In this document: one piece after another, positions 38,490 to 62,054 of the stretch | Layout of the letters: the number at the start of each line of letters is the position of its first letter | Numbering within the stretch: position 1 is the stretch's first letter | DNA from: Roseivirga misakiensis | GTDB taxonomy: Bacteria > Bacteroidota > Bacteroidia > Cytophagales > Cyclobacteriaceae | Assembly: GCF_001747105.1 (NCBI RefSeq) | Contig: NZ_MDGQ01000005.1 | Coordinates: forward strand, 558,001 to 622,000 | DNA: 64,000 nucleotides | Reading direction: 5' to 3' | Made by a program: the position numbers and the translations under genes | The notes under the pieces: generated by a model | What the model saw: only the letters and a program-made list of their open reading frames with translations | What the model was told of the DNA's origin: nothing | Databases searched by the model: none

Positions 38490-41400
38490 ATGAAAAGACT
38501 CCTATCAGTATTATTAGTGGTATTCACTATTAACCTGAATGCCCAAACAACACCAAAATGGATTCGATATCAGTCCATTTCTCCCGACGGTCAACATATC
38601 GTTTTTACCTATAAAGGTGATCTGTATCGGGTAGCTTCCAGCGGCGGAGATGCCGTACAGTTAACCTTCCATCAAGCGCATGACTACATGCCAGTTTGGA
38701 GTAACGATAGCAAGCACATTGCCTTTGCTTCTGATCGGTATGGTAATTTTGATATCTATGTAATGAGTGCAATGGGTGGCGCAGCTACTCGACTCACTTA
38801 TCATTCAAATTCAGAAAGTCCTTTTAGCTTTTCAAGCGACAATAAACACGTCATTTTTGGTGCACAACGCCAAGATATCGCAGAGCATAGACAGTATCCG
38901 ACAGGATCGCAGCCAGAGCTTTATCAAGTTCCTGTAAGTGGCGGTAGAGTAGATCAAGTATTTACCATTCCGGCAGAATATACTCAATTGAGCAAAGATG
39001 GGCGTTACATGGTTTACCATGATAAAAAAGGAGGTGAAAATGAATTTAGAAAACATCATAAGTCAGCCATTACGCGTGACATTTGGATGTATGACAAAAG
39101 AAAAAATGAGCATAAGATGCTCACCAACAGAGAAGTAGAAGATAGGCAGCCTGTATTCTCAGCCGATGAGAAAAGTCTCTATTATCTCAGTGAGATCAAT
39201 GGAAATTTCAATGTGCATAAAATGTCAATTGAAAACCCGTCTCAAAGCGAGCAATTGACGGATTTTAAGCTACATCCCGTTCGTTTTTTAAGTTTCGGAA
39301 ATGGTACGCTCAGTTTTGGTTACGACGGCGAACTTTATACCATGCGTGAGGGGAGCCAACCACAAAAAGTTGAGGTGAACATTCGTACTCAGGAAATTGC
39401 CAATTCAGATAAATTCATCACCATTAATGGAGGCGTCCGTGAAATGGCCATATCACCAAATGGGAAAGAAATTGCCTTCATTGCAAGAGGGGAAGTATTT
39501 GTGACTTCTGTTGACGGGGCGATAACCAAAAGGATTACCAATACGCCAGAACAGGAGCGTTTTGTGACTTGGGGACCAGAAGGTAAAAGCGTGGTTTACG
39601 CTAGCGAAAGAGGGGATAAATGGAATGTTTATAAGGCGACAAGAACACGCGAAACAGAAGAGCCTTTCTTTTTTGCCGCAACTATTATCAAGGAAGAAGC
39701 CCTGATCAGCACGGATGAGGATAACTATATGCCGAAGTATTCTCCAGACGGTAAAAAATTGGCCTATATAGCAGGAAGAAGAACCTTGAGAATCATGGAT
39801 GTAGCCAGTGGTTCGACGAATGATCTTTTAACGCCAGAAGACCTCTATCATATGAGAGATGGCGATAAGTATTTCACCTGGAGCCCAGATAGCAAGTGGT
39901 TGCTCGTAGAGTGGGGTCAAACACTGAGTAATAGCGAAGTGCTGCTGATGTCTGCTGATGGGAAAGAAAGAGAGAACTTAACAGAAAGTGGCTACAGAGA
40001 TTCTCGGCCTAAGTGGGTAAACGGAGGCAAGCAGATGCTTTGGTTTAGCAACAAAAATGGTCTAAAGAGCTATGCAACTAGTGGCCGTTCTCAAAGCGAT
40101 GTCTATACCATGTTTTTTACGCAAGATGCTTGGGATAAGTATAAAATGAGCAAGGACGATTATGCCTTGATGAAGGACATAGAGAAGGAGACAGAAAAGG
40201 CAAAAAAGGCTGACGCAGATAAGGATAAAGACAAGAATAAAAAAGATGACAAGAAAAAGGATGAAGTAAAAGCACTCCAATTCGATAAAGACGATATGCG
40301 AGATCGTCAGGCACGATTGACGATTCATTCTTCAAGTCTAGGAGATGCTACATTATCAAAAGATGGAGAGAAACTCTACTATTTAGCAAGTTTCGAGGGT
40401 GGTCAAAACTTGTGGACTACGAATTTAAGAACACGTGAGACTAAACTGGCCATTAGGTTAAATACGGGCTTTGGATCGCTACAATGGGATAAGGATATGA
40501 AGAACCTCTACCTATTGAGTGGGGGGCGTATTTCAAAGATTAATCCAGATGGAGGCAAGAGAACTGGGATTACCATTAGCGGAGAAATGGAGTATGATGC
40601 CATTGCAGAAAGAGCATATGCCTTTAATCACGTGTGGATTAGAACCAAGAACATCTTTTACGAACCAACCTTCCACGGAGTAGATTGGGACCTGATGAAA
40701 AAGGAATACAGCAAGTATTTATCATCCATCGGAAATGGTTATGAATTTTCTGAGATGCTATCCGAAATGCTAGGCGAACTCAATGTATCACATGCAGGAG
40801 CACGATACGGTACTAGTATTCCTAATGCCGATGCCACTGCCTCTTTGGGTATTTTCATGGATTATAAGCACAAAGGAAATGGTATCAAGATTACAGAAGT
40901 AATGAAAGGCGGCCCGCTTGATAAAGCAAAGTTTGATATCAAACCAGGCATGATCATCGAGAAGATTGATGGAGAATTAGTAACACCAAATCGAGATATT
41001 GCTACTTACTTAAACCGAAAAGCCGGTAAGTTCACCCTGCTTGAGATTACAGGACCAAAAAAGTCGGATAGACAGCAAATCACGGTGAAGCCTGTTTCGT
41101 TAGGTGCAGAGCGAGGACTATTATACAGTCGTTTCGTCAAGATAAATGAGAAAGAGGTTGAAGAGAAATCAAAAGGGCAATTAGGATACGTCCACATTCC
41201 GGGTATGAGCGACGGTCCATATAGAAGTATTTACGAAGATATTATGGGTAAATACTACGATCGAAAAGGAATCGTCGTCGATACACGTTTCAACGGCGGA
41301 GGTGACCTTGTGGCTGATTTAGCCATGTTTTTTACAGGTGTGCCATTCATAACCTATGAAACAGAGGCGAAGGTTGTTGGAGCTGAGCCAACGTCGCGCT

Positions 41401-41729
41401 GGACCAAACCCACTTTAGCCCTATTTAATGAAAGTATGTATTCAGATGGGCATTGTTTTGCGAGCGGCTACACGGACCTTAAAATTGGTAAGACAGTGGG
41501 GATGCCTGTTCCAGGTACTTGTAGTTTCGCAGGATGGGAAGGTCTACCAGGTGGAGGACGCTGGGGAGTTGTTCCGGTTAGTGCAAAGAATAAAGCGGGT
41601 GAATGGATGGAGAATAACCAAACAGAACCTTTGATTAAGCTGAAAAATATGCCGGGAATGATTGACCAAAATCGAGATCAACAATTGGAAAGAGCAATTG
41701 AAGAAATGCTGAAAGATATTGGTAACTAG
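38490..41729 (+). CDS. Exported tricorn-type S41 protease
   Basis: Exported peptidase of 1079 aa. Signal peptide at 1-19 (cut after LNAQ). A first seven-bladed-type PD40/beta-propeller region (about 20-300, SPDGQHIVFTYKGDLYRVASSGG and similar repeats), a second propeller (about 300-560), a Lys/Asp-rich linker (about 570-595, KAKKADADKDKDKNKKDD), a further propeller part, a helical C1 region, a PDZ domain (about 785-870) and the S41 catalytic domain follow. The tricorn active residues are present: His768 (LNVSHAGA), Ser985-Asp986 (ESMYSDGHC) and Glu1046 (NQTEPLIKL). It probably degrades peptides in the periplasm, in contrast to the cytosolic archaeal enzyme. The gene has its own terminator. 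Confidence 0.92.
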   Translation: MKRLLSVLLVVFTINLNAQTTPKWIRYQSISPDGQHIVFTYKGDLYRVASSGGDAVQLTFHQAHDYMPVWSNDSKHIAFASDRYGNFDIYVMSAMGGAATRLTYHSNSESPFSFSSDNKHVIFGAQRQDIAEHRQYPTGSQPELYQVPVSGGRVDQVFTIPAEYTQLSKDGRYMVYHDKKGGENEFRKHHKSAITRDIWMYDKRKNEHKMLTNREVEDRQPVFSADEKSLYYLSEINGNFNVHKMSIENPSQSEQLTDFKLHPVRFLSFGNGTLSFGYDGELYTMREGSQPQKVEVNIRTQEIANSDKFITINGGVREMAISPNGKEIAFIARGEVFVTSVDGAITKRITNTPEQERFVTWGPEGKSVVYASERGDKWNVYKATRTRETEEPFFFAATIIKEEALISTDEDNYMPKYSPDGKKLAYIAGRRTLRIMDVASGSTNDLLTPEDLYHMRDGDKYFTWSPDSKWLLVEWGQTLSNSEVLLMSADGKERENLTESGYRDSRPKWVNGGKQMLWFSNKNGLKSYATSGRSQSDVYTMFFTQDAWDKYKMSKDDYALMKDIEKETEKAKKADADKDKDKNKKDDKKKDEVKALQFDKDDMRDRQARLTIHSSSLGDATLSKDGEKLYYLASFEGGQNLWTTNLRTRETKLAIRLNTGFGSLQWDKDMKNLYLLSGGRISKINPDGGKRTGITISGEMEYDAIAERAYAFNHVWIRTKNIFYEPTFHGVDWDLMKKEYSKYLSSIGNGYEFSEMLSEMLGELNVSHAGARYGTSIPNADATASLGIFMDYKHKGNGIKITEVMKGGPLDKAKFDIKPGMIIEKIDGELVTPNRDIATYLNRKAGKFTLLEITGPKKSDRQQITVKPVSLGAERGLLYSRFVKINEKEVEEKSKGQLGYVHIPGMSDGPYRSIYEDIMGKYYDRKGIVVDTRFNGGGDLVADLAMFFTGVPFITYETEAKVVGAEPTSRWTKPTLALFNESMYSDGHCFASGYTDLKIGKTVGMPVPGTCSFAGWEGLPGGGRWGVVPVSAKNKAGEWMENNQTEPLIKLKNMPGMIDQNRDQQLERAIEEMLKDIGN

Positions 41730-41735
41730 TCCGTT

Positions 41736-41789
41736 TTTGATGAAATGACTTTAAGCTCTGGTGGTAGACTTTCCATCAAAGCTTTTTTT
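41736..41789 (+). terminator. Terminator of the tricorn-like gene
   Basis: TTTGATGAAA near 41736 pairs with TTTCCATCAAA near 41770-41780 (one mismatch), with a long loop, then GCTTTTTTTG. The long loop makes it weaker than the terminator at 37085. Confidence 0.55.
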
Positions 41790-42226
41790 GTGACTAACCA
41801 AATAAGAGTTCACTGATAATCGCTATTCCAAACCCGTCAGCTATTCTCAGTAGGTATGAATTCTTACAAAATTGTATGCATGTAATTTTTATCTATGATT
41901 AATTTGAACATGAAATAGTCAATGATAGAAATAAATTAATTATGAAATACTTAAGGAGGTTTCTATATTTACACTGAAAGCTCAACGCTAATTAGGCTGT
42001 TTTTTAAAACAGAATTGGAGTGTTTAAACAGGAACACTTACTAAATGGTTGCTCAGGTTTTCTGAACCAAATCCTGTATCACAGTCACAGGAATTACCCC
42101 CTGACATTATTAAAAGGCTTTTAGCCCAGATTAATCTGGTGCTAGAGTTTCCCAATCCTTCTTCGTGTGGAGTTCCCGGTATATATCGGTTTCAAAGAAT
42201 AATGTCACAATCAACCGAAATTCAAG
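41790..42226. other. Intergenic region before the giant adhesin
   Basis: No convincing gene is present in 437 bases. The frame at 42049-42264 has no support. The region is AT-rich and contains an isolated AAGGAGGT near 41952 and two small inverted repeats: CTGTTTT-TT-AAAACAG (41997-42012) and AGTGTT-N8-AACACT (42019-42038). It is the likely promoter and 5' leader of the adhesin. No complete promoter consensus was found. Confidence 0.5.
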
Positions 42227-45200
42227 ATGGGGTTAATGCGCCAATACGAACCAGTCAAAAGTAGCTTAGGTTTAGTTTTTTTTAGTCTACTCTTTAATGT
42301 TGTCTCTTTTTTAACGGGCGAGAATACCGCTGCGATACCCGATAATCTACAGTTTACTGGTACAATTACTTTTGAACACGTGAAAGATGTTGGAGGAACT
42401 TTCGCCACTGATAATGCCCAGTTTTATACTTCGGAAAGTCAAGAGCATGTATTAGTCGTAGACGGGGAAAGTTTAGGGACGCGAGGTGCCGATAATAGGG
42501 TGTATAGCTATACTGAAGACGATATTGAAGCTCAAAACGACTTTGAAACCAAGATAAGGTTATCATTTTCTGAGTCAGAATTATTTGATGTTACCAGCAC
42601 AAATTCAATTTACATCTACAATAATGGAAATGAGGCAGTTTTCAGTATTACGAGTAATACAGGTCAAATGGCCGGTTTAGTTTCGATACCAGGGCAGTCA
42701 GGTATTGCCGTTAATCTTACCGACAATAACACAGCAATTTCCTTTATCGATATCACTACGAACAACAACTTCTCTATTTACATTTCATCACTAGCCATAG
42801 AAAATGTTACTACGAGCAATGCACCTGCTCTCGATGTAGGCGATGCGACAATTACTTTTGCTCAAGGAGATGAACCGATACAGATTTCTCCAGCTGGCAC
42901 TGTCAGTTTAGCAGATGAAACCTTATGGGACGGGGGCAGTTTGTCCGCCCAAATCTCAACCAATGCGAAACCAGGAGATTCTCTTTCGATTTTAGATGAT
43001 GACGGCGACGACCTAGCTATTTCCATTGATGATACAGATTTATTGGCCAATGATGTGGTAGTGGGTAGTCTTAATGTCACCGATGGGAAGGTAGATGGCG
43101 AAAGCTTATTGTCAGTGGTCCTGAACGAAAATGCTACTAACGCAATTCTCCAAGAGATTTTACAGTCCATGAGGTTTGAAGAAGCCTACGGATTCGTTCA
43201 GGAGGAACTTCGAGAAATAACGGTAGTAGCTACAAATGGCGAAGGGATAGAAATCAAAAGATTTAAGAAAGTTGAATTGAATAGCTATCCTACATTTGAC
43301 GGATGTCCTATGGGAGAGTTAATATGCCCTGACTTCTCACCCACTAGTGGGGCAAGTAGTATTGTTGACATTAACGGAACTACCGTACTTGGTTTGTCAG
43401 ACCTAACAGGAGGATTTACAGCTCCAGAAGGGAGTTATTTTAAAGTTGAAAAGTTTAATGGTGAATTATTAATTAATGATAAGGCTGTTGTCAAAGATCA
43501 AAACGACAGCATTAGCTCAATCGATGTTGCCAAGTTTACACCAAATCGGGGAAGTGGCCAATACAATATTATTTATGGCACTTTGTACTTTCTGACAAGT
43601 CCGGATACATACTTCGAAGTTCCAGCACCTGCTCGGGTTTTTGCGGATGTAGATAATACAGTTTTGTCGCCGACTTTCACTCATGCTGGAAACCAAACTG
43701 TCGATCAAAATGCTGGTGCTACTACTAAATTGAATTTCATTACATCCATTGATGATGGTGATCTACTTTCGGATCAAGAAGTGACATTTTTAATCACTGA
43801 AAATGATAACACAGATTTATTTAGTTCGGTACCTGCCATTTCCAATAGTGGAATTCTAACCTATACTCCAAAATCAGACACTTACGGAAAGGCTAATTTA
43901 ACCGTAACCATGTCTAACGAAGATGATCAAACGTCCACACAAGATTTTACGATTTATGTAACGCCAACGGGCTTATTAATAAATGAAATACAACCCAAGG
44001 CAAGTGCTGATTTTGAGTTTGTGGAGATCTTTAATAATAGTAACGAAACCCAAAATTTAAGTGGTTTAGTGTTGGTTTTATTCAATGGGTCCAATGATTT
44101 GGCTTATAAAGATATCGGACTTGAAGGCACCCTCGTTGGTAGCGATTATTTAGTAATTGGTGGCGAGCAAGTACCTAATTTAGATGAAGACTGGGGGAGT
44201 ACTTCGTTTCAAAATGGTACTGACGCCGTAGCCTTGTATGTTGGTTCAACTTCGGATTTCAATACATCGTCACCGCCAAGTTTAGATGGGTTGGTAGACG
44301 TGATTGTTTATGGTGACTCAGATGGCGAAACTTTGAGAGCCTCCTTTGGTAATGCAGCCCTCAGAGCTCCAGGGGACGATAGTAACTCACTTTCTCGTAC
44401 AGTAGATGATTCCAATGTTTTTGTGGTACAACCAGAAACACCGGGAGAATCAAATATTAATCAGGCTATAACGCTTACAATTAGTGGTCTTACAGGTCTA
44501 AATAAGGTTTATGATCGGAATACTGCGACACAAGCTGAGGGAACAGCTGAGCTGTCAGGTATAGAAGAAGGAGATGATGTTTCATTAGGCGGAACTCCTG
44601 AATTCAATTTTAGCACCTCAGATGTTGGAACGAATCTCGAAATATTAGTTACAGGATATTTACTTGAAGGGGCGGATAAAGATAAATATGAACTCTCTTT
44701 ACCAACATTGACCGGAAATATCACGCCTAAAGAATTAACGGTTAGTGTGACGGCTAATAATAAGGTTTATGATAAGACGACGACTGGTACAGTAGGATCA
44801 GCTGGTTTATCAGGTATTGAAAGTGGCGATGTAGTAACGATTGATGGTAGTCCGAGTGCATTTGCCTTTGGAAGCGATGATGTTGGTTCTGGTGTTACTG
44901 TCACTGCTACAGGTACCTATACCTTAACAGGTACAGATGCTGGTAACTATACATTGTCGCAACCTACACTTTCAGCAGACATTACGCCTAAAGAATTAAC
45001 GATCAATGTAACGGCTAATAATAAGACTTATGATAAGACGACGACTGGGACAGTAGGTTCAGCTAGTTTATCAGGCGTAGAAATTGGCGATGTAGTAACG
45101 ATAGATGGTAGTCCAAGTGCATTTGCCTTTGCAAGCGATGATGTTGGGACTGGCATTGCGTTTACAGCCACAGGCAACTATACAATTACAGGCACAGATG

Positions 45201-48200
45201 CTGGTAACTACACGGTATCACAGCCGAGTGGCTTATCGGCCGACATTACTGCTAAAGGCTTAACAGTTGATGTCACAGCCAATAACAAGACTTATGATAA
45301 GACGGCTGCTGCGACCGTAGGTTCAGCTAGTTTATCAGGTGTAGAAAGCGGAGATGTAGTGACGATAGATGTTAGCCCAAGTGCATTTGCCTTTGTGAGC
45401 GATGATGTTGGGACTGGTATTGCAGTTACAGCCACAGGGAACTATACAATTACAGGTACAGATGCCGGTAATTATACGGTATCGCAACCTACACTTTCAG
45501 CAGACATTACCGCTAAAGGCTTAACAGTTGATGTAACAGCGAATAACAAGACTTATGACAAGACGACGGCTGCGACGGTAGGTTCAGCTAGTTTATCAGG
45601 CGTAGAAATTGGCGATGGAGTGACGATAGATGTTAGCCCAAGTGCATTTGCCTTTGTTAGCGATGATGTTGGGACTGATATTGTGGTTACAGCCACAGGG
45701 AACTATACAATAACAGGTACTGATGTTGGTAATTATACACTATCGCAACCTACACTTTCAGCAGACATTACCGCAAAAGGCTTAACAGTTGATGTCACAG
45801 CGAATAGCAAGACTTATGACAAGACGACGGCTGCGACGGTAGGATCAGCTAGTTTATCAGGCGTAGAAATTGGCGATGTAGTGACGATAGATGTTAGCCC
45901 AAGTGCATTTGCCTTTGTTAGCGATGATGTTGGGACTGATATTGTGGTTACAGCCACAGGTACTTACACTTTAACAGGCACAGATGCTGGTAATTATACC
46001 TTGACACAGCCAAGTGGCTTATCGGCAGATATTACAGCTAAAGGCTTAACAGTTGATGTCACAGCTAATAATAAGACTTACGATAAGACAACGATTGCGA
46101 CCGTAGGTTCAGCTAGTTTATCAGGTATAGAGAGCGGCGATGTAGTGACGATAGATGGTAGTCCAAGTGCATTTGCCTTTGCAAGCGATGATGTTGGGAC
46201 TGGTATCGCCGTTATAGCAACAGGTACCTACACTATCACAGGCGCAGATGTCAATAATTATTCTGTCACTCAACCTTCAGGACTGTCTGCGGATATCACG
46301 CCGAAAGTCTTGTCAGTAATCGCTCAAGCAGACAATAAAACTTATGATGGTGATGTAACCGCTACGGTAAGTTCGGCAAGCTTAAATACCGATGAAGAGG
46401 TCATTGAAAATGATGACGTGTCAATTGATGAAAGTCCGAGCGCTTACGCATTTGTAGACTCAGATGCAGGCAGTGGGAAATCGGTCGTCATAGTGGAGGG
46501 AGAATTTACCCTGAGTGGAAACGATGCTCACAATTATATGGTCACTCAGCCTGATAATCTTAGCGCAGATATTATTCCAAAGGGATTGACACTAATCGTA
46601 ACAGTCAATGATAAAGTGTACGATGGAGAATTGTCGACAACTGTTGATCAAGCTTCGATAGAAGGCCTAATCGAGGGCGATCTTGTCACTTTGTCGGCAC
46701 CGAATACTTTGGATTTCGTAGATCCCAGTGTTGGAAATGATAAAACTGTGGTGGTAGATGAGCTCTTCTCAATCGAAGGTGCTGCTGCTTCCAATTATTT
46801 TATAGATGATAGCCAATCAGAAGGAAGCATACTCCCTAAAGAATTGTCGATTACGGGTCTTGTAGGTATTGATAAAACCTATGATGGTAGCACTGCTGCA
46901 AGTACGAATGGGATAGCAAATTTAACAGGGCTTGTTGGGGAAGATGAAGTCGTTTTAGATGGAAATCCGACTTTTATATTTACGAGTGCAAATGTTGCTG
47001 ATAATATCACGATCACTACTTCTGGATATGCGATATCAGGAGCTGAAGCAGGTAATTACACCATTATTCAACCAATACTCTCGGCAGATATTTCGGCCAA
47101 GGCTTTAGTGATAGTTGGAATTACAGGTGATAATAAAGTCTATGATGGAGGTACTTCGGCCTCAATTAGCGGCTCAGCGGCATTAACAGGTTCGGTAACG
47201 GGTGATGACATCAGTATAAGTGGAATGCCAGAATTTACCTTTGAGAACAAGAATGTCGGAACAGGCATTGCTGTCACAGCAACAGGCGACTATACTTTAA
47301 CAGGCGCAGATGCTAATAACTACACGGTGTTGCGGCCTACACTCACGGCAGACATTATAGCGAAAGAATTAACGATTAGTGTAGCAGCTAATAATAAGAC
47401 TTACGATAAGACGACATCCGCGACCGTAGGATCAGCTAGTTTATCAGGTATAGAGGGTGGCGATGTAGTAACGATAGATGGTAGTCCAAGTGCATTTGCT
47501 TTTGCAAGCGATGATGTTGGGACTGGCATTGTAGTTACGGCCACAGGTACTTACACTTTAACAGGCACAGATGCTGGTAACTACACGGTATCACAGCCTA
47601 CACTTTCAGCAGACATTACAGCGAAGACTCTGACAGTGACTGGTCTAACCGGAGACAATAAAATCTTTGATGGTAATACAACAGCTAGTGCTAGCGGTAC
47701 CGCAGTCTTGAATGGTGTTATCGGTGCAGATGATGTAATCTTAGATGGTGTCCCTGTCTATACCTTTGTTAGCTCAAGTGTTGGAACAGGAATTGTGATC
47801 AATACATCGGGTTATTTCCTCATTGGATCTGATGCGGGTAACTACACAGTAACCCAGCCAACGCTTTCTGGTGATATTACAGAACCAACGGTAGCCTTTG
47901 CATTAACCACTAGTAATCAATCGGAATCGGCAAGCACAGCGAATATAAACGTTGCTTTATCTTCAGTGACAGCTGCTGCCGTTACTGTGAATTACACAGT
48001 TTCTGGAACAGCTACAGGGTCAGGCACAGACTATACCTTGGCCGATGGTACCCTAACAATCAATCCTAATAGTAGCTCAGAGGATATCTCAATAAGTATA
48101 ATTGATGACTTATTAGATGAGTTTGACGAGACAGTGGTTGTGACCTTAAATAATCCAACTGGAGCAACCTTAGGTAGCAATACGGTACATACTTACACAA

Positions 48201-51019
48201 TCAACGATAATGACGATGCGCCAACTGTTCAGTTTGATATTGCTACAGATGGTCAGTCAGAAAATGAAGAAGCTCAAGACCTGCCTATATCGATAAGTGC
48301 AGAGAGCGGTAAAACAGTAACAGTTGACTATGCAGTTACAGGAACAGCAACAGGTAGTGGGACGGATTATACCCTTGCCGATGGTACATTTACTTTCAAT
48401 GCAGGAGACGTAGGCCGAACATTTTTCTTGACAGGTATTGTTAATGATCTATTGGACGAAGACGATGAGACCATTATCATCACCCTTTCCAATCCAAGCA
48501 ATGCAACGCTAGGTGGTCAGCAAACTTTGACTTACACGATTCAGGACGATGATGCATCACCAACAGTAATACTTTCAGTTGGAGATAATACGATTGATGA
48601 AGCCTCTGGAACAAGTAACATCACGGCTACATTATCGGCGATATCGGGTCGCGATGTTACCGTGAACCTAGGCTACACAGGTACTGCTACGAATGGCACT
48701 GATTATAACAGCACAGCCAGTACGTCGATTACAATTCCAGCAGGACAATCTTCGGCAAATGCAGCCATAGGTCTTACGGCCACTCAGGATACCGATGGAG
48801 AAGGTAATGAGACAATTATTATCGAAATAACCTCAGTTGTTAATGGTACCGAAGATGGTATTCAGCAACAGACCATCACTTTAGTAGATGATGATGACAT
48901 CACTGCACCAAGTGGTTACAGCGTAACGATGGATGATGAACTGATTGGAGGAGCAGAAACGGCAACTAGCACTTTCACCTTCGTAGGAGCAGAAGTAGGA
49001 GCCAACTATAACTATACGGTGAGTTCAGATGGTGGTGGAAATGATGTGACTGGCACAGGAACAATTGCAACGGCAACTGATCAAATAACGCTTGCGGACC
49101 TGTCAGGCTTGGTTGATGGCACATTGACCTTAACAGTAGCCCTAACCGATCCATCAGGGAATATTGGGACGGCAGTAACGAGTAGTACAACATCAAAAGA
49201 TACAACGGCTCCAAATGCTCCAATGGTGAACAGTATAACTACCGATAGTGGCAGCAACGGCACAGACCAAATCACTAATGACAATACGCCAGATGTAAAT
49301 GGCACAGCAGAAGCCAATGCCATGGTAGAAGTCTTTGTAGATGGAAGTAGTGTCGGTACAACAAGCGCTGATATGGATGGAAACTGGACAATGGCCTATA
49401 ATGGCAATGACCCAATAACTGATGGAGAGTTAGTGATCACGGCTACGGCCACTGATGAGGCAGGAAACCAGAGTTCTGAAAGTAGTGCTTTGAACGTAAT
49501 TATCGACACTACTGCCCCTACCGCACCAATGGTGATTAGTATAAGCACAGATAGTGGGGCGAATGGAGCTGATCAAATTACCAACGATAATACCTTATAC
49601 ATTAATGGTATAGCAGAGGGTGATGCCACTGTAGAAGTACTCATAGATGGAATAAGCATTGGTCATACCACAGCAGATAGCAATGGAAACTTCAGTTTCG
49701 ATCATACTGGTACTGAACTGAGTGATGCGAGTTACAGTCTGACAGCCAAGGCTACGGATATAGCAGGTAATGAAAGTGCGGAAAGCACCGAGTTTGATCT
49801 AACCATAGATACTGCGTCGCCAGAGGTGATTTCCATTGTTAGAAAAGAGGCAGATCAGCTAAGGACGGGAGCTGAAGAGGCGAATTTTACAGTGATATTT
49901 TCTGAGATAATAATTGACGTAGATATAGCTGACTTCGCGATTACGCTATCAGGGACGACAGGCGTTATCAACACAGTTACCGCTATTGACGGTAAAACTT
50001 ATGAGGTCAATGTGAATGGTATTTCAGGTGAAGGTACTATTGGTATAGAGGTTGTTGATGACGATAGTATTCTAGACGAGGTCGGTAATCCTTTGGGTGG
50101 AATAGGTGCCGACAATGGAAACTTCACAGCAGGCGAGATTTATACCACCAATTTCGCACCAATTGATATAATAGATTTAGGGTGTTTTGTAGAAAATAAT
50201 TCGATTGGAGATGTTGTAAGAGAACTAATTAGTGTAGATCGTGATACAGATGATCACCATGTATATTCCCTTGTCGAGGGAATAGGGGATGCCGATAATG
50301 CAAGTTTCACAATTGACGGTAACCAGTTAAAGGCAGCTGAAATATTTGACTTTGAAACCGCAAACAGTTACTCCATAAGAGTGAAAACGGATGATGGCTT
50401 TGGAGGGGTATTTGAAAAAGCCCTGACAATTGACATTGGAAACGAATTGGAACCATCGATAACTATAGCAGAAACAGAAACTGCTTTTGATGTTTCGGCA
50501 CTTGGCTTAAGTCAAGAAAGAACGATTAATGTCACTAATAATGGCGAGGTATTGGTTCAGGTTACTACAGCGGTAACTTCAAATAACTTCAATGCATCTC
50601 CTTCAATATTCGACATTGAGGTTGGCGAAACAGTTCAAATAACAATTTCTTTCGTACCGACTGAAGCGAGAACATACAACGAAAGTTTCACTTTTATTTA
50701 TGAGGGAGGCGAAGTAAATCATCCTGTCAGTGGGGAGGGTGCTGTTATTACGTCAGTTGACCAAAAGATAGATCCGGCAAGTATTTCTGTTTATCCTAAC
50801 CCAGCGGATAAGTTGCTTACAATTGACTTATCAAAATTAGCAGTTAGCCAAATTGATGTTGAAATAGTCAATACGGTAGGGTTGAAGATAATAAGTATGA
50901 GCACTTCAACTGATGAAGTAATTCAACTCGATATTTCAAGCTACAAGTCGGGTGTCTATATACTGCAATTCAACAATGGTGTCTCAATGGCAAGAAAGAA
51001 AATAGTGATTAAACGATAG
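42227..51019 (+). CDS. Giant T9SS-secreted repeat protein (adhesin-like), 2930 aa
   Basis: Multidomain surface or secreted protein. Order along the chain (rough bases): signal peptide with hydrophobic LGLVFFSLLFNVVSFL (42227-42330); an unassigned beta-rich part with a small Cys cluster (FDGCPMGELICPDF); a cadherin-like segment (43670-43960); a lamin-tail-like domain (INEIQPKASADFEFVEIFNN, 43970-44450); thirteen MBG/YDG-type repeats with the (N/D)K-x-YD motif (44471-47881); three Calx-beta domains (47885-48897); bacterial Ig-like domains (48908-49815, two of them close copies); another Ig-like part, a cadherin-like segment (50164-50440) and an ASPM/HYDIN-like domain; and the C-terminal T9SS type A sorting domain (VYPNPADKLLTIDL ... 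GVYILQFNNGVSMARKKIVIKR). Secretion by T9SS and anchoring to the cell surface are therefore expected. The function is probably adhesion or biofilm. Confidence 0.92.
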   Translation: MGLMRQYEPVKSSLGLVFFSLLFNVVSFLTGENTAAIPDNLQFTGTITFEHVKDVGGTFATDNAQFYTSESQEHVLVVDGESLGTRGADNRVYSYTEDDIEAQNDFETKIRLSFSESELFDVTSTNSIYIYNNGNEAVFSITSNTGQMAGLVSIPGQSGIAVNLTDNNTAISFIDITTNNNFSIYISSLAIENVTTSNAPALDVGDATITFAQGDEPIQISPAGTVSLADETLWDGGSLSAQISTNAKPGDSLSILDDDGDDLAISIDDTDLLANDVVVGSLNVTDGKVDGESLLSVVLNENATNAILQEILQSMRFEEAYGFVQEELREITVVATNGEGIEIKRFKKVELNSYPTFDGCPMGELICPDFSPTSGASSIVDINGTTVLGLSDLTGGFTAPEGSYFKVEKFNGELLINDKAVVKDQNDSISSIDVAKFTPNRGSGQYNIIYGTLYFLTSPDTYFEVPAPARVFADVDNTVLSPTFTHAGNQTVDQNAGATTKLNFITSIDDGDLLSDQEVTFLITENDNTDLFSSVPAISNSGILTYTPKSDTYGKANLTVTMSNEDDQTSTQDFTIYVTPTGLLINEIQPKASADFEFVEIFNNSNETQNLSGLVLVLFNGSNDLAYKDIGLEGTLVGSDYLVIGGEQVPNLDEDWGSTSFQNGTDAVALYVGSTSDFNTSSPPSLDGLVDVIVYGDSDGETLRASFGNAALRAPGDDSNSLSRTVDDSNVFVVQPETPGESNINQAITLTISGLTGLNKVYDRNTATQAEGTAELSGIEEGDDVSLGGTPEFNFSTSDVGTNLEILVTGYLLEGADKDKYELSLPTLTGNITPKELTVSVTANNKVYDKTTTGTVGSAGLSGIESGDVVTIDGSPSAFAFGSDDVGSGVTVTATGTYTLTGTDAGNYTLSQPTLSADITPKELTINVTANNKTYDKTTTGTVGSASLSGVEIGDVVTIDGSPSAFAFASDDVGTGIAFTATGNYTITGTDAGNYTVSQPSGLSADITAKGLTVDVTANNKTYDKTAAATVGSASLSGVESGDVVTIDVSPSAFAFVSDDVGTGIAVTATGNYTITGTDAGNYTVSQPTLSADITAKGLTVDVTANNKTYDKTTAATVGSASLSGVEIGDGVTIDVSPSAFAFVSDDVGTDIVVTATGNYTITGTDVGNYTLSQPTLSADITAKGLTVDVTANSKTYDKTTAATVGSASLSGVEIGDVVTIDVSPSAFAFVSDDVGTDIVVTATGTYTLTGTDAGNYTLTQPSGLSADITAKGLTVDVTANNKTYDKTTIATVGSASLSGIESGDVVTIDGSPSAFAFASDDVGTGIAVIATGTYTITGADVNNYSVTQPSGLSADITPKVLSVIAQADNKTYDGDVTATVSSASLNTDEEVIENDDVSIDESPSAYAFVDSDAGSGKSVVIVEGEFTLSGNDAHNYMVTQPDNLSADIIPKGLTLIVTVNDKVYDGELSTTVDQASIEGLIEGDLVTLSAPNTLDFVDPSVGNDKTVVVDELFSIEGAAASNYFIDDSQSEGSILPKELSITGLVGIDKTYDGSTAASTNGIANLTGLVGEDEVVLDGNPTFIFTSANVADNITITTSGYAISGAEAGNYTIIQPILSADISAKALVIVGITGDNKVYDGGTSASISGSAALTGSVTGDDISISGMPEFTFENKNVGTGIAVTATGDYTLTGADANNYTVLRPTLTADIIAKELTISVAANNKTYDKTTSATVGSASLSGIEGGDVVTIDGSPSAFAFASDDVGTGIVVTATGTYTLTGTDAGNYTVSQPTLSADITAKTLTVTGLTGDNKIFDGNTTASASGTAVLNGVIGADDVILDGVPVYTFVSSSVGTGIVINTSGYFLIGSDAGNYTVTQPTLSGDITEPTVAFALTTSNQSESASTANINVALSSVTAAAVTVNYTVSGTATGSGTDYTLADGTLTINPNSSSEDISISIIDDLLDEFDETVVVTLNNPTGATLGSNTVHTYTINDNDDAPTVQFDIATDGQSENEEAQDLPISISAESGKTVTVDYAVTGTATGSGTDYTLADGTFTFNAGDVGRTFFLTGIVNDLLDEDDETIIITLSNPSNATLGGQQTLTYTIQDDDASPTVILSVGDNTIDEASGTSNITATLSAISGRDVTVNLGYTGTATNGTDYNSTASTSITIPAGQSSANAAIGLTATQDTDGEGNETIIIEITSVVNGTEDGIQQQTITLVDDDDITAPSGYSVTMDDELIGGAETATSTFTFVGAEVGANYNYTVSSDGGGNDVTGTGTIATATDQITLADLSGLVDGTLTLTVALTDPSGNIGTAVTSSTTSKDTTAPNAPMVNSITTDSGSNGTDQITNDNTPDVNGTAEANAMVEVFVDGSSVGTTSADMDGNWTMAYNGNDPITDGELVITATATDEAGNQSSESSALNVIIDTTAPTAPMVISISTDSGANGADQITNDNTLYINGIAEGDATVEVLIDGISIGHTTADSNGNFSFDHTGTELSDASYSLTAKATDIAGNESAESTEFDLTIDTASPEVISIVRKEADQLRTGAEEANFTVIFSEIIIDVDIADFAITLSGTTGVINTVTAIDGKTYEVNVNGISGEGTIGIEVVDDDSILDEVGNPLGGIGADNGNFTAGEIYTTNFAPIDIIDLGCFVENNSIGDVVRELISVDRDTDDHHVYSLVEGIGDADNASFTIDGNQLKAAEIFDFETANSYSIRVKTDDGFGGVFEKALTIDIGNELEPSITIAETETAFDVSALGLSQERTINVTNNGEVLVQVTTAVTSNNFNASPSIFDIEVGETVQITISFVPTEARTYNESFTFIYEGGEVNHPVSGEGAVITSVDQKIDPASISVYPNPADKLLTIDLSKLAVSQIDVEIVNTVGLKIISMSTSTDEVIQLDISSYKSGVYILQFNNGVSMARKKIVIKR
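44726..46300 (+). repeat. Six tandem 261/264-bp MBG-type repeats in the adhesin
   Basis: Units start at 44726, 44987, 45251, 45512, 45773 and 46037; each encodes 87 or 88 aa (the longer form ends QPSGLSADIT, the shorter QPTLSADIT). DNA identity between neighbours is high: the first 195 bases of units 4 and 5 differ at about five positions, while their last third differs much more. This indicates recent duplication with gene conversion. More diverged units continue to 47881. Confidence 0.9.
47360..47620 (+). repeat. Displaced copy of the array repeat
   Basis: This 261-base unit is close to the units at 44726-46300, but is separated from them by four diverged units (46301-47359). It shares, for example, the GSPSAFAFASDDVGTG coding segment with units 2 and 6, so a non-adjacent copying event is likely. 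Confidence 0.8.
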
Positions 51020-51030
51020 CCCCTAGTAAG

Positions 51031-51447
51031 ATGAAAATTCAACAAAAGATATCCCTGATAGCGATTTTATTGATCACTTTTTTGTGGTCATGTTCGAGCG
51101 ATGACCCTAATGCAAAAGAAATAGCATTCGAAAAACTTGAGGGTGATTGGAGTTTGGATGAGAGTGGAATCATTGAACTTGACGGTACCGATATAAGCCT
51201 GAATTACAGCGATTTTTCCTTGTCTTTTGCTGATGGTACCTATGAAACTATCAATGGTGGAGATCTCTTTAACGCGAGTGGTACATGGGAATGGATAGGT
51301 GATGATGGAACAACTTTGCTCTTAGATACTGGCGAAGGAGTATCTATACTCACTTTAACAGAAAGCGTATTCAGGTTCTCATTCTTTCACCAAGGCAGTA
51401 CACGAACAGGACTTCGAGGTAGTTATATAGTGCAAGTGGGAAAATAA
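51031..51447 (+). CDS. Small lipocalin-like lipoprotein
   Basis: Lipoprotein of 138 aa. The signal peptide ends with the lipobox WSCSSDD (lipidated Cys21). The mature part is mostly beta strands with a pattern like Bacteroidota lipocalin-like proteins (FEKLEGDWSLDESGI, a start typical of the lipocalin-like domain; GTWEWIGDDGTTLLL; FRFSFFHQG). It starts 11 bases after the adhesin stop, so it is probably co-transcribed and may help export or anchoring of that protein, but this is inferred. Confidence 0.75.
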   Translation: MKIQQKISLIAILLITFLWSCSSDDPNAKEIAFEKLEGDWSLDESGIIELDGTDISLNYSDFSLSFADGTYETINGGDLFNASGTWEWIGDDGTTLLLDTGEGVSILTLTESVFRFSFFHQGSTRTGLRGSYIVQVGK

Positions 51448-51510
51448 CTTGAGTCAGTCATTCTTTTCATATCCGCTGGTATTTATTACCGATGATATCT
51501 AGTTTTGGGT

Positions 51511-51969
51511 ATGAGAAAGTTATTAGTAATAGCAGTTATACTTTTTGGATTTTCTGGCTTACAACAAGTAAAAGGTCAAGAAATTGGTGTCCGATTCGGC
51601 AATGGTCTTGTTAGCGATGTAGCTTTTGATGCCGTTTTTTCTTTTGGTCAGTTTAGTAGAATTCATTCCAATGTAGCATTTGGCAACGATCAGGTAGGTG
51701 TTAGTGCATTATTGGACTTTATTTATCGCCCATTGGGGGAAGAAGGCTTTAGCTGGTATACTGGAGCTGGCCCATATGTAGCATTGGGTGGTGATTTCCA
51801 ATTAGGAGCCGCTGGTGAAATAGGACTAGAATATCAATTTGGCCAAGTGCCTCTATCTTTAAGTTTGGACTGGCGACCAGCATTTAGACTTGTCGATGAT
51901 ACGGACTTCAGCGTAGATGGTTTTGGATTTAACCTGAGGTACGTCTTCAAAAGTAAAGAGCGAGACTAG
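51511..51969 (+). CDS. Small secreted beta-rich outer-membrane-like protein
   Basis: 152 aa. The start is ATG 51511; a TTG two codons upstream is possible. Signal peptide MRKLLVIAVILFGFSGLQQVKGQ (cut after KGQ). The mature part has alternating hydrophobic strands with many Gly and aromatic residues and ends in DGFGFNLRYVFKSKERD, resembling an eight-strand outer-membrane barrel, close in feel to short porin-like or OmpW-type proteins. The substrate is unknown. It lies 63 bases after the lipoprotein gene and may be part of the adhesin operon. Confidence 0.65.
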   Translation: MRKLLVIAVILFGFSGLQQVKGQEIGVRFGNGLVSDVAFDAVFSFGQFSRIHSNVAFGNDQVGVSALLDFIYRPLGEEGFSWYTGAGPYVALGGDFQLGAAGEIGLEYQFGQVPLSLSLDWRPAFRLVDDTDFSVDGFGFNLRYVFKSKERD

Positions 51970-51979
51970 CCGAAGCAAT

Positions 51980-53134
51980 TTAGTTTTTGATGAGTCTTTT
52001 GTTTCTCAATAGAACCACAAATGACGTAAAGATCATGGCGATCGATAGGTAGAGAAACCCACTTTTAATAGAGGTAGCATCTATAAGTGGCTGGAAAAAA
52101 AGCGGAGATGCAAACTGTCCAAGAAAAATAAAGGTCGTTAACAAACCAAGCACCTTCCCTCTAATTTCGGGAGAAGCCATAGTAACTAGGCATAAATTTG
52201 AGTTCGGCATCAGTAATCCCGCACCCAGGCCAGAAATTAATAGTCCGGGAAATGTCATCGCGTAACTATTTGCAGTGGAGATTAATAGATAGCCTATTCC
52301 CATGAACAGAAAAGTCAATGCATAGATTTGATAGTGAGTGAATCTTCTTTTTAGCTTTGGGTATTGGAAAGATGTGACACCGCCTACGAGCATGACCGTG
52401 GCAATGGCAAAGCCGGTTTCTTTACTGCCCACACTTGAAATCTCTTGCATTAAAAAGGGTGTTTGAACGGGCATGAGATAGAAAGTAATCATTCCAATAA
52501 AGGAAATGATGAAAATCGTCCAGGCGAGCTTTGGAATACTTGTCTTATCCTGATTTTTTGAAATATTAGCTGTTCTAATCGGCTCTTTTAAGAAAAGTAA
52601 GACCATTGGCACAGCAACTAAGGCCAGTAGATAAATTGCGAACGGATATCGCCAACTGATATCGGCTAGAACTCCACCCAATGAAATGAACAATGTGCCA
52701 GACAATGCCATGATACCTGCTTGAGTGCCGATAAACTGTTGTCTTTCGTCCCCTTCGAAATAATCGCCTATTAGCGCGACTGCTGTGGTCATAATCCCAC
52801 CTACGGCAACTCCTAGAAAAACCCTTCCAATAATTATTTCAATTAATGTATTAAGGTACAACCCAGAACTGCCAGCCGCAGCGTACAAGAATAGCATAGA
52901 GGCCAAAAGCTTGATACGACCAAATTTGTCAATAAACCAGCCAGAAATAGGGGATGTTAATGCAATGAATAGACCTGGAATAGTCAAGACAAGCTTTACC
53001 AGCGTCTCCGCACTTGGATTATTTGGAAATGCGTTAGTCATTTCTGGTAATGACGGGGCAATTGTGGCCCCAGCCATCACGGTCATCATACTACAGAAAA
53101 GAATGGTTGACTTTACAAGTGCGGTATTTTTCAA
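51980..53134 (-). CDS. MFS transporter, DHA1-type drug exporter
   Basis: Inner-membrane exporter with 12 hydrophobic helices in 384 aa. Motif A is seen in loop 2-3 (GWFIDKFGRIKLL), motif B/C-like Gly patterns in TM4-5 (GRVFLGVAVGGIMTTAVALIGDYF). The start is TTG 53134, 13 bases after the marR stop; the next in-frame ATG would cut into the first helix, so the alternative start is preferred. It lies in an operon after marR, a common arrangement for drug-responsive exporters. The substrate is unknown. Confidence 0.85.
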   Translation of the reverse strand: MKNTALVKSTILFCSMMTVMAGATIAPSLPEMTNAFPNNPSAETLVKLVLTIPGLFIALTSPISGWFIDKFGRIKLLASMLFLYAAAGSSGLYLNTLIEIIIGRVFLGVAVGGIMTTAVALIGDYFEGDERQQFIGTQAGIMALSGTLFISLGGVLADISWRYPFAIYLLALVAVPMVLLFLKEPIRTANISKNQDKTSIPKLAWTIFIISFIGMITFYLMPVQTPFLMQEISSVGSKETGFAIATVMLVGGVTSFQYPKLKRRFTHYQIYALTFLFMGIGYLLISTANSYAMTFPGLLISGLGAGLLMPNSNLCLVTMASPEIRGKVLGLLTTFIFLGQFASPLFFQPLIDATSIKSGFLYLSIAMIFTSFVVLLRNKRLIKN

Positions 53135-53147
53135 TTGAGGAAAGAAC

Positions 53148-53597
53148 CTAGGCTCTCAGTTTATTTAATAACTGGTTAAGCACTTTGAGCTCTTTTTCGT
53201 TCAAATTATTTGTGATATCATCAATTAAAGTCATTTCGTCATCGATTTGGCCCAGTAAGTTTAAACCATTTTCATTGATGAACACTTGAATTTTACGTCC
53301 ATCATGAGGGCAAGGCTTTTTCCAAATAAGTCCTTTCGTACAGAGCTTGTCGACCAATCTAGATGCATCAGCATTCCCGATAATCATTTTATCCTTAATT
53401 TCTAAAGTACTGATGGGCTCCGAATTCTGACCGCGTAAAATTCGCAGTACGTTCAGCTGTTGTAGCGTAATGTTGTGCGGTTTTAACAACTCAGTCATTC
53501 GTTGTGTAAGCCAGTAACCTGAGTATAAAAGGTTGACTCTGGATTTATGTTGTATACTTTGGAATGAGCCTTTTATCAACTGTTCATCTAATGTCAT
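53148..53597 (-). CDS. MarR-family regulator
   Basis: MarR-type winged-helix regulator (149 aa). The DNA-binding core is seen as LNVLRILRGQNSEPISTLEIKDKMIIGNADASRLVDKLCTKGLIWKK followed by the wing PHDGRKIQVFINENG; dimerisation helices flank it (1-40 and 115-149). It is the first gene of an operon with the MFS transporter, 13 bases apart. A palindrome CAATGTT-GA-AACATTG (53624-53639) lies 27 bases upstream of its start and recurs upstream of the neighbouring operon, so it is likely its own operator. Confidence 0.92.
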   Translation of the reverse strand: MTLDEQLIKGSFQSIQHKSRVNLLYSGYWLTQRMTELLKPHNITLQQLNVLRILRGQNSEPISTLEIKDKMIIGNADASRLVDKLCTKGLIWKKPCPHDGRKIQVFINENGLNLLGQIDDEMTLIDDITNNLNEKELKVLNQLLNKLRA

Positions 53598-53623
53598 CTC
53601 AAAATGATTTAGGTAAAGTAATA

Positions 53624-53639
53624 CAATGTTGAAACATTG
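53624..53639. promoter_or_regulatory. Predicted MarR operator upstream of marR
   Basis: CAATGTT-GA-AACATTG has 7-bp arms and a 2-bp centre. It shares the core ATGTTG-AACATT with the region upstream of the carboxymuconolactone decarboxylase gene (54759-54788). It lies 27-42 bases upstream of the marR ATG. Confidence 0.6.
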
Positions 53640-53664
53640 AGTGAGTATTGCAAACTGATGATAT

Positions 53665-53707
53665 AAAAAAGGCCATCCTTACTTGCGGAGGCAAGTCATA
53701 GGATGGC
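53665..53707 (-). terminator. Terminator of the CMD-cupredoxin operon
   Basis: On the minus strand GCCATCC pairs with GGATGGC, and inside them ACTTGC pairs with GCAAGT around a 4-base loop; CCTTTTTT follows. It lies 30 bases after the cupredoxin stop. Confidence 0.85.
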
Positions 53708-53736
53708 ACCTTAATTAACACTACAAATCAACTCAC

Positions 53737-54108
53737 TTATTCTTTCACCACTATTTTGTAGTGTGGTGTTGGGTTTAATGGGCAGAAGTAATTGTACGTT
53801 CCAGCCGCTAGGTTTACCACTTTGGAAGAACCTTTTTCGCCATCCTTAATCGCTTTTGAAAGGTATCCGGCCTTAATGTGATCGCCTTCTTTTCCATCTT
53901 TCACTGGAGCAATTACAAAACCTACTTCATGGTCAACTCCTTTATTCGTTACCTCGAAAATGTATTTTCCCGGTTTTAAAGTCAGCTCTTTTGTTACAAA
54001 TTCGCCTGGTGTTTGGTCAAGCTTAATTACTGTTGCTTCTTTTTGTTGCGCAAAACCAATGGCTGAAAATCCTATTAGTAATGCCGCGATGATTAATGAT
54101 CTTTTCAT
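53737..54108 (-). CDS. Exported cupredoxin-like protein
   Basis: Small exported protein of 123 aa (start ATG 54108; a longer frame from 54135 would put extra residues before a clear signal peptide MKRSLIIAALLIGFSAIGFAQ). The mature domain is a beta-sandwich of the cupredoxin type with candidate copper ligands: His in GVDHEVGF, Cys and His in YFCPLNPTPHYKI. The Cys-to-His spacing (six residues between) is larger than in blue copper proteins such as pseudoazurin (two residues), so copper binding is probable but unproven. It follows the CMD gene and shares its upstream palindrome, suggesting a redox or stress role. Confidence 0.85.
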   Translation of the reverse strand: MKRSLIIAALLIGFSAIGFAQQKEATVIKLDQTPGEFVTKELTLKPGKYIFEVTNKGVDHEVGFVIAPVKDGKEGDHIKAGYLSKAIKDGEKGSSKVVNLAAGTYNYFCPLNPTPHYKIVVKE

Positions 54109-54151
54109 CTTATTTAAATTGTTATTATTTGTCAATTGATTGATTGTTCTA

Positions 54152-54706
54152 TTAAACTAAAGCTGGCTCTTCTATTGGTTGAGCTACAGGGAAGTCAATA
54201 GCAATTTGGGTTAGGTTGTGCACATAATTAGCTAATGTTTTATCAGCTACTAATGCGATCAGATCTATTAGAGCCGCATTGTCAAAACCTTGAGCGAAAA
54301 ATGCTTCGACGGTCTCTTCAGATGCTCTTCCGCGATTTTCCGTGATATCTTGAGCAAGTTTTACAATCGCATCAAGTCTAGCATTGTCGCTTTCACCTTT
54401 TCGTAAGGAAATAGTTTCTTCTTCGGTAAACCCGTTCATTTTACCTAAAGCTGTATGCGCAGCTTGGCAATAATCACAGCCATTGATCTGTGAAACAGCT
54501 AGGTATACGGCTTCACGTTCTTTGGCGTTAAATGTTCCTTTAGCTTGAGCGCCTTGGAAAGCTAAGAATGAGCTTAGTGCATTAGCTGATTGGCCAATGG
54601 TCGCGTAAAGATTTGGAACCATTCCTACTTGCTTTTTCAAATTATCAAAGATGGCTTGTGCCTCTGGTGAAACTTGATCTCTGGTTGGTACTTCAAAAGT
54701 TCTCAT
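54152..54706 (-). CDS. Carboxymuconolactone decarboxylase (AhpD-like) family protein
   Basis: Cytosolic helical protein of 184 aa of the CMD/AhpD family. The redox pair CDYCQAAH carries two cysteines spaced CxxC followed by His, which is the AhpD-type peroxidase/disulfide-reductase active site. The N-terminal part contains the family helix (YATIGQSANALSSFLAFQGAQAK). It is first in an operon with the cupredoxin gene (44 bases apart). The MarR-like palindrome upstream (54759-54788) suggests control by the neighbouring MarR. The likely role is peroxide or quinone stress defence. Confidence 0.9.
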   Translation of the reverse strand: MRTFEVPTRDQVSPEAQAIFDNLKKQVGMVPNLYATIGQSANALSSFLAFQGAQAKGTFNAKEREAVYLAVSQINGCDYCQAAHTALGKMNGFTEEETISLRKGESDNARLDAIVKLAQDITENRGRASEETVEAFFAQGFDNAALIDLIALVADKTLANYVHNLTQIAIDFPVAQPIEEPALV

Positions 54707-59984: not shown

Positions 59985-62054
59985 TTAATTGATTTTGTAT
60001 CGGATTTGGAATTTCACATCCGTACGTTTATTGCCTTCGATAGTATCAAGACCTGTGCCAATGGTGTCTCTGTCGTAAAAAGTGGTTCTAGCTACTCTAA
60101 ACCATATATCTGCTCGACGTGAAATCTTGTGGTTTAATAATATGTAGTTTCTAATACCTCTGCCAGAATATGCGGGAATTGAAAAAGCATAGAGTACATC
60201 CCTTTCGTAAACATACTGTCTATTTTGATTACCATTTGTGTCGAATAAAGCGACTCTGGTACTTATGCTGAATCCATCTAATTTCATAGTAGCATCTTGA
60301 ATAAAAGCGATTCCCTCTGACCGCTCGCCTTGGATGGTATAGTTACTATATTGGATTCGAGATTTTAATCTTAGTGCTTGATGGTTTAATGCTAGATTTA
60401 GGAGCCATTGTTGTTTAGTACCCAAGGTTACGATTCGTTGATTTAAATCAGGAAGCGTGTAGTTCACTTCCTTCTTCTTTTTTCTGTATTGCAAGTAGGT
60501 TAAGATGTGTCTTTTTGGGGTATAGTTCAACCTGACCATATAGTCACTGCCGCTAGATGGATTGTCAACTTGAAAACGTAACCAAGGGAACTTAAAAGTG
60601 TCGTAATAGGCAGTGATGTTTAGTTGGTTGTTCCAGGTATATTTCATGCCCGTGTACTGCCCGCTTTCATTTATGTTTCTACTGCCTTCTGCTAAGGAGG
60701 CGCCTTTTAGTGCATGAAAATCTCTTTGATAATTTCTTACTACCATAGCCAATTCAACTCTATCCGAAAGACTGGTAGTAAACCCAAAGATTATTCCTTT
60801 GCCACCACTTTTTGATATAGCCGCTTCCCCGAAAAAATCGAACTGTTTCCAGTTGAAATTGCCATAGAGCCCAAGATTGTAATTATACCTGCCCGAGAAA
60901 TCAAATTTATTGTAAGGCTGATCTGCTCGACTAACGGGTAGTGATAAATGACTTGCAGCGGCTATAAACCCTATGCGTTTAAAGTCATTTGGTTTATGAT
61001 CTAGCGTTATGCCGTAAATGGCTTCGCTTAATTGGTGCTTATTATTTAGTTCACTTTCGGTTCTGTGAAACCCAGTATTTAGTATGGACGAAACACTCGA
61101 ATCTGAACTATCAATATCAATCTTCACATTTCCATCAAGCGGTGTATATGAGAGGAAGCTTGTAAGGGTTAATTCATCGCTTAGTTTGTAACTGGCAGCC
61201 ATTCCACGCAGAAAACCACTTTCGACCACCGAAGTATATGGCCTTATACCTGTATGATACCGCTTCATGCCACTGACAGCTGCCGCACCTTTGCCAGTGT
61301 TGAGCCCAGCACCAAATAGTAAACCTTGTCCGAATTGAAGTTGGTAATCCCCTATAATGACTCTTTTCCAACGACCGATATTTTCTTTCATGAAATGCAC
61401 CGACCAGAAGTCGCTACCAAATTTTTTATCACTAGGTCTCCATTGAAATCTTTCACCAGCATCTTTTTCTGTAGTAAAGCCAAGACTAAAATCTCCAGAC
61501 TTAGCCACTCTGTATCTTAAATAAACCTTCAGCGGTGTTCCGATGTAGGCAGGCTGTGTTTCGTCATCTATTAGTTTGAATCCTTTTTTTGTCTCTAGTC
61601 CTTGTTCAAAACGGAGAAGAAAATAGTTATTCCTTTCGGTTAGGATTTTTCTTAGTAATGATCGGTCATCAATTTTATCCTTATTAAAGTCGATTGTGAT
61701 AAAGGGTAAGAGCTTGTTAATCGTGACTTCATCAAAGCCTTTCATAAACTGAAGTTCAAATAAGGTCAAAAGTTTGCCTGAAACTTGAATGTAATTTTGA
61801 AGAGAAGCTATTTGTCGTGCCGAAAGCATAAAGAGACCCTGCATTTCTTCGGCAGTCGCGGTATTGATATTTATTGGGTTTTCATAGATCAGTAGAAGCC
61901 TTTCAAATAGGTCTTCGGAGTTTGAAGATTCTTCTTGTGTATTAAACCTCGCTTCGATGATTGATTGCAGATCAGATTCATCGATACTTTGGGCGTGCCC
62001 GTGATGAATAAGGTAGATTTGGAAAACGGTGAATATTAAGAGAAACCTATTCAT
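59985..62054 (-). CDS. Helix-hairpin-helix protein with C-terminal outer-membrane barrel
   Basis: 689 aa. Signal peptide 1-21 (cut after GHAQ). Residues about 25-125 contain helix-hairpin-helix pairs of ComEA type (PININTATAEEMQGLFMLSARQIASLQNYIQVSG and FDEVTINKLLPFI), and the rest is a long series of alternating strands with aromatic girdles (FSLGFTTEKDAGERFQW, YQLQFGQGLLFGAGL) ending in KFQIRYKIN, typical of an outer-membrane barrel. ComEA-type HhH domains bind DNA in uptake systems, so DNA contact is conceivable but unproven. The gene overlaps the preceding PorV-like gene by 4 bases, so the two are coupled. Confidence 0.8.
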   Translation of the reverse strand: MNRFLLIFTVFQIYLIHHGHAQSIDESDLQSIIEARFNTQEESSNSEDLFERLLLIYENPININTATAEEMQGLFMLSARQIASLQNYIQVSGKLLTLFELQFMKGFDEVTINKLLPFITIDFNKDKIDDRSLLRKILTERNNYFLLRFEQGLETKKGFKLIDDETQPAYIGTPLKVYLRYRVAKSGDFSLGFTTEKDAGERFQWRPSDKKFGSDFWSVHFMKENIGRWKRVIIGDYQLQFGQGLLFGAGLNTGKGAAAVSGMKRYHTGIRPYTSVVESGFLRGMAASYKLSDELTLTSFLSYTPLDGNVKIDIDSSDSSVSSILNTGFHRTESELNNKHQLSEAIYGITLDHKPNDFKRIGFIAAASHLSLPVSRADQPYNKFDFSGRYNYNLGLYGNFNWKQFDFFGEAAISKSGGKGIIFGFTTSLSDRVELAMVVRNYQRDFHALKGASLAEGSRNINESGQYTGMKYTWNNQLNITAYYDTFKFPWLRFQVDNPSSGSDYMVRLNYTPKRHILTYLQYRKKKKEVNYTLPDLNQRIVTLGTKQQWLLNLALNHQALRLKSRIQYSNYTIQGERSEGIAFIQDATMKLDGFSISTRVALFDTNGNQNRQYVYERDVLYAFSIPAYSGRGIRNYILLNHKISRRADIWFRVARTTFYDRDTIGTGLDTIEGNKRTDVKFQIRYKIN

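Follow-up and report, generated by a model that had tools for sequence, protein, structure and literature searches.

A tract of 13 YDG units within a 2930-residue protein of Roseivirga misakiensis is probably a fibrillar stalk that lengthened in the past through tandem duplication and occasional recombination between units, with a presumed stalk role and a presumed location at the cell surface. The tract occupies 44462-47875 of the window, i.e., the whole 64,000-nucleotide stretch of DNA analysed here, and its units are listed in Table 1 together with the carrier gene and the neighbouring genes that served as synteny markers.

Table 1 Features of the YDG array gene and its surroundings; positions are those of the window, and U1 to U13 are the YDG units in order
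Feature	Position	Strand	Remarks
Upstream neighbour, tricorn-like S41 peptidase gene, synteny marker	38490..41729	+	
Surface-protein gene carrying the array	42227..51019	+	single ORF, 2930 residues; Pfam: YDG x13, Calx-beta, Big_13, Por_Secre_tail
YDG unit U1, old edge unit	44462..44719	+	47% aa to best own unit, 56% to G308 unit
YDG unit U2, K-type, QPTLSAD ending	44720..44980	+	
YDG unit U3, K-type, QPSGLSAD ending	44981..45244	+	
YDG unit U4, K-type, QPTLSAD ending	45245..45505	+	92% nt to U5
YDG unit U5 (unit 4 of the initial annotation), K-type, QPTLSAD ending	45506..45766	+	
YDG unit U6 (unit 5 of the initial annotation), K-type, chimeric, QPSGLSAD ending	45767..46030	+	
YDG unit U7, K-type, QPSGLSAD ending	46031..46294	+	
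Divergent YDG units U8-U11	46295..47353; starts 46295, 46565, 46832, 47093	+	29-54% aa to others, except U11-U12 58%
YDG unit U12, displaced K-type copy, QPTLSAD ending	47354..47614	+	81-85% nt to U2-U7
YDG unit U13, old edge unit	47615..47875	+	71% aa to G308 unit vs 53% to best own unit
Calx-beta and Big_13 modules, 3' of the YDG tract	47882..49510	+	Pfam best stretches residues 1886-1996, 2338-2428
Type IX secretion C-terminal sorting domain	50789..51010	+	Por_Secre_tail residues 2855-2928
Downstream neighbour, MFS transporter gene, synteny marker	51980..53134	-	

The family identity of the units is given by Pfam, whose YDG model (PF18657) matches the protein in 13 stretches with 554.4 bits, the cut-off being 25; across the whole genome all 13 YDG matches lie above the cut-off, and every one of them falls within the array gene. 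The repeats had initially been annotated as MBG, a label rejected here because the YDG score stands at 554 bits while none of the MBG families matches the protein at E <= 0.001; the MBG_2 profile has no match over the genome either, although the same model does fire on proteins of three other genomes (G012, G016 and G036). The C-terminal end of the protein matches Por_Secre_tail in Pfam (48.5 bits, cut-off 27) and, over the same tail, TIGR04183 in NCBIfam (35.6 bits, cut-off 23), marking it as a predicted type IX secretion cargo. At the opposite end, Pfam recognises no adhesive domain in residues 1-745 beyond a sub-threshold match to LTD (29.6 vs 34.3 bits).

Searches around the gene give little else: Rfam has no match over 41000-54200, tblastn against plasmids returns only distant multi-domain matches, and the C-terminal region searched across genome contigs yields 31 pattern matches, with no relative among them and no second isolate of the species. 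The same genome encodes more giant proteins with shared C-terminal modules (G000:C4:357726-364037 and C5:768516-769379, in open frames 2604 and 4240 residues long), and elsewhere in the window a 689-residue open frame (59985-62054, minus strand), for which Pfam gives nothing at E 0.001, adjoins an M1-like peptidase gene. A literature search found nothing on this Roseivirga gene, and the phrase 'YDG domain' led only to eukaryotic papers which, judged by their titles, deal with the separate UHRF/SRA domain; the accession PF18657 turned up in two papers.

The six units of 261/264 bases first reported from the raw sequence are present, in frame and in tandem, at 44720-46294 when delimited by protein phase (lengths 261, 264, 261, 261, 264 and 264), and form part of the larger YDG tract; TRF identifies a single array in the 64-kb window (44727-46250, period 261, 5.8 copies, 86% matches). 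The motif VTANNK.YDK or a near variant characterises seven of the 13 units, namely the tandem U2-U7 and the displaced U12, for which we use K-type as our own label. The initial description of the repeats as nearly identical in places holds locally, but whole K-type units share only 77-92% of their DNA and the longest exact repeat in the array is 81 bp; the remaining YDG units are much more diverged. The two alternative endings are mixed through the array as originally described, QPTLSAD being found in U2, U4, U5 and U12 and QPSGLSAD in U3, U6 and U7, and the alignment resolves the latter into two DNA forms, with codons common to U3 and U6 and other codons in U7.

A contrast between U5 and U6 had also been noted in the initial annotation, and the alignment bears it out, with 6 differences over the first 195 columns and then 24 over the remaining 69 (these counts include gap columns). 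The same contrast appears in synonymous divergence, which rises from a dS of 0.08 in the first 195 columns to a saturated pS of 0.80 in the remainder. U6 is thus U5-like over 45767-45961 and unlike U5 over 45962-46030, where its nearest unit is U12, followed by U3. Recombination tests on the aligned units, which the annotation had proposed as a check, support past recombination between them. PHI on the seven K-type units gives p = 0.0002 (56 informative sites, three window sizes), and none of 400 recombination-free simulations on fitted trees (0/200 under HKY+G, 0/200 under a codon model) reaches the observed PHI z, which is -6.2 against a simulated minimum of -3.9. A GENECONV-like permutation retains four of 21 pairs at global p<0.05 (U2/U5, U6/U12, U2/U4 and U3/U12). 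In AU tests each part rejects the tree of the other (p=0.0004 and 0.004); these tests are partly post hoc, since the breakpoint at column 195 was taken from the finding itself, whereas PHI is independent of any breakpoint. Gap columns were dropped for the simulations, the AU tests and leave-one-out PHI. The last of these remains at p <= 0.002 on removal of any unit but U6, whose omission raises p to 0.09 (p=0.048 without U6 and U12). Because of this dependence on U6, a single chimeric unit composed of two unit lineages is well supported, and exchange beyond it is only suggested; of the recombining array originally proposed, past recombination is sustained by PHI, simulations and AU tests, but most of the signal comes from one unit.

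Two explanations of the mosaic appearance dispense with recombination between units altogether. A mutation rate that varies along the unit, or convergent selection acting along it, would fit the observation that the last third is likewise more divergent in U3/U7 and some other pairs, but would leave unexplained that the U5/U6 contrast is synonymous, that U2/U5 show the opposite gradient and that the simulations fell short of the observed PHI z despite including rate variation, and we regard this explanation as extremely improbable. An assembly artefact, with repeats collapsed or made chimeric, might be feared in a repetitive array, all the more as the YDG gene of a relative (L047) is cut by a contig end; however, the 81-bp maximum lies below common short-read length and the reading frame is open throughout, which leaves this possibility with next to no weight.

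A third explanation retains recombination but moves its source outside the genome, the last third of U6 having come from an allele of the gene in another strain or species. In its favour, no present unit matches the 3' part of U6 along its entire length (in the best 45-column windows U12 matches at 39-44 of 45 positions and U3 at 38), for which reason we assign no donor. Against it stand a 41-bp exact match between U6 and U12, which sits in the same gene behind the divergent units and away from the tandem six, the U3-like codons in the U6 ending, the lack of any further YDG tract in the genome, and the fact that 16 of the other 18 genomes of the genus give no YDG match above the cut-off. Such an import is unlikely, although we would grant it some chance.

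Of the 19 genus genomes, five match YDG at E 0.001 and three score above the cut-off; besides the window's genome these are G002 and G009, each with one unit, that of G002 lying in a frame interrupted by a contig end. The weak matches of G012 and G016 fall in MBG_2 arrays. At the slot between the peptidase and MFS genes, G001 has a 3564-residue protein devoid of YDG, whose identity to the window protein is 68% across residues 1872-2532 and 43% across 2656-2930; BLAST finds nothing N-terminal of residue 1872. Since the match is confined to the C-terminal regions, the YDG tract and the N-terminal part behave as an exchangeable block. Relative to G001, positions 42227-47880 are replaced, and a sharp module junction lies exactly where the YDG tract stops. 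Complete proteins without YDG are found near the slot in G010 and G016 (3390 and 3734 residues), contig ends truncate those of G012, G015 and G018, whose N-terminal parts thus fall outside the assembled sequence, and the frame in G013 is no longer than 609 residues. In G010 the MFS neighbour gene has shrunk to a 41-residue frame beside the adhesin (G010:C2:516771-516863). A further Roseivirga-genus protein (L047:1769-3268) combines fn3 with a YDG unit before the contig end cuts its frame, possibly concealing an unassembled YDG array.

The age of the K-type units can be approached from their synonymous divergence, which ranges from dS 0.26 to 0.89 over all 21 pairs. The C-terminal region of the same gene shared with G001 has a dS of 2.21, so the units arose after the split from G001; in the flanking peptidase, synonymous sites are saturated or nearly so in comparison with each of the four relatives tested. 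The units are not young, however: no whole unit is a recent copy, and these dS values speak against recent expansion. Over the same pairs dN/dS is 0.12-0.21, well below 1, which indicates constraint and argues against diversifying selection. These values likewise tell against the antigenic change postulated in the initial annotation, and as Roseivirga is a marine, free-living genus, antigenicity would have no evident host context.

YDG is present in 30 of 395 class genomes, and the 13 matches of the window's genome are the most listed, the next having 10. The arrays compared comprise the window gene and 18 loci, drawn from 16 of the 29 other YDG-matching genomes plus G002 and G027; in two of them (G336 and G303) no unit passes the filters (E <= 0.001, hits covering <55 profile positions dropped), leaving 16 loci with units. 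Three species of one genus (G054, G254 and G347) have three units each, one-to-one orthologous, with 70-92% identity between orthologues of different species vs 51-59% otherwise, in proteins that are 86-92% identical. G162 and G223 have seven units each in proteins 82% identical over 1633 residues; their first and last units are clear orthologues, and units 4-6 of G162 are 87-92% identical to one another and all best match unit 4 of G223 (85-88%). Unit number is therefore equal within both comparable genera (3/3/3 and 7/7). The array of G308 (L162), where DNA identity among units 2-5 reaches 95-100%, is much younger, and active length change would be better sought there. YDG arrays can thus be stable, newly expanded or reworked in their core. 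It is the last of these cases that the window's array fits, because its K-type units form one clade in the tree (7/7, support 99) and U13 falls among units from other genomes, and it resembles the G162 and G223 arrays in its tandem 87-residue YDG units with conserved edges; those of G308 differ in being younger.

An AlphaFold2 model of U4-U6 predicts three serial all-beta domains (mean pLDDT 95.1, pTM 0.75), from an input alignment of U4-U6 with 34 related triples in which 24 of 25 references were used, one G308 triple being left out. Sequence search finds no convincing solved structure (the better of two hits has E 0.54), and a fold search with the model finds no Foldseek match at E<=0.001 and no VIA-align Z>=5; the missing fold match is not evidence for a new fold.

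PMC9210967 lists YDG as a stalk domain, and according to PMC8201768 the family was built from searches for repeats during the study of Periscope Proteins. The window protein shares with Periscope Proteins, as described there, tandem folded domains of more than 50 residues, a putative surface location and high identity between adjacent units: neighbouring K-type units are 83, 86, 92, 92 and 83% identical in protein, over the 80% threshold of the Periscope repeat screen, these values being pairwise and those of PMC8201768 having been obtained with T-REKS. It differs from that account in its DNA identity of 77-92% with high synonymous divergence, and in its type IX tail where a sortase anchor or an outer-membrane barrel is described. 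The defining trait of Periscope Proteins is length variation between strains, while the window array is known from one genome; since this trait lies outside one-genome data, we describe the protein as Periscope-like in architecture and do not file it as a Periscope Protein. Fibrillar-adhesin-like proteins, as described in PMC9210967 and PMC8286594, likewise have YDG as a stalk domain and include proteins with Por_Secre_tail, mostly from Bacteroidetes, whereas the window protein, which has this tail too, is without a recognised adhesive domain. Taken by its sequence features, it is best described as a putative YDG-stalked, type-IX-secreted, fibrillar-adhesin-like protein.

These comparisons bear directly on the reading in the initial annotation, that of an actively recombining, variable-length array of Periscope type in which unit number depends on the strain and alters surface display or antigenicity. 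The identity of adjacent units and the recent expansion of the G308 array are what such an array would lead one to expect, but no pair of K-type units is near-identical, constraint prevails, and unit number is the same within both comparable genera; moreover, the most extreme variation in repeat number coincides with the highest repeat identity in the data set out in PMC8201768. We therefore judge active length variation to be improbable here, more so than the import of the U6 ending.

In the interpretation that we prefer, growth by past duplication and occasional exchange, one subtype, the K-type, multiplied inside an older YDG tract and gave rise to six tandem units and a displaced one, which have since diverged under purifying selection. 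RecA-type homologous recombination between out-of-register units, by unequal crossing-over or conversion, may have produced both the duplications and the U6 chimera. A variant in which U12, protected behind the divergent units, serves as a donor, converting parts of the array time and again and so renewing its units at constant number, seems to us very unlikely. Additional units would lengthen the stalk and set the distance of the N-terminal part from the cell, in events that are presumably rare and do not constitute a fast length switch.

The array would accordingly be an ordinary example of bacterial stalk-protein growth, with no sign of present length change in the one genome from which it is known, and it cautions that a mosaic appearance in raw sequence is not proof of current length variation. 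It may serve as a dated example of how stalk arrays grow in Bacteroidota surface proteins, by the multiplication of a core within an old tract whose edges are conserved, and it suggests that the units of such arrays can recombine at times and yet remain constrained.
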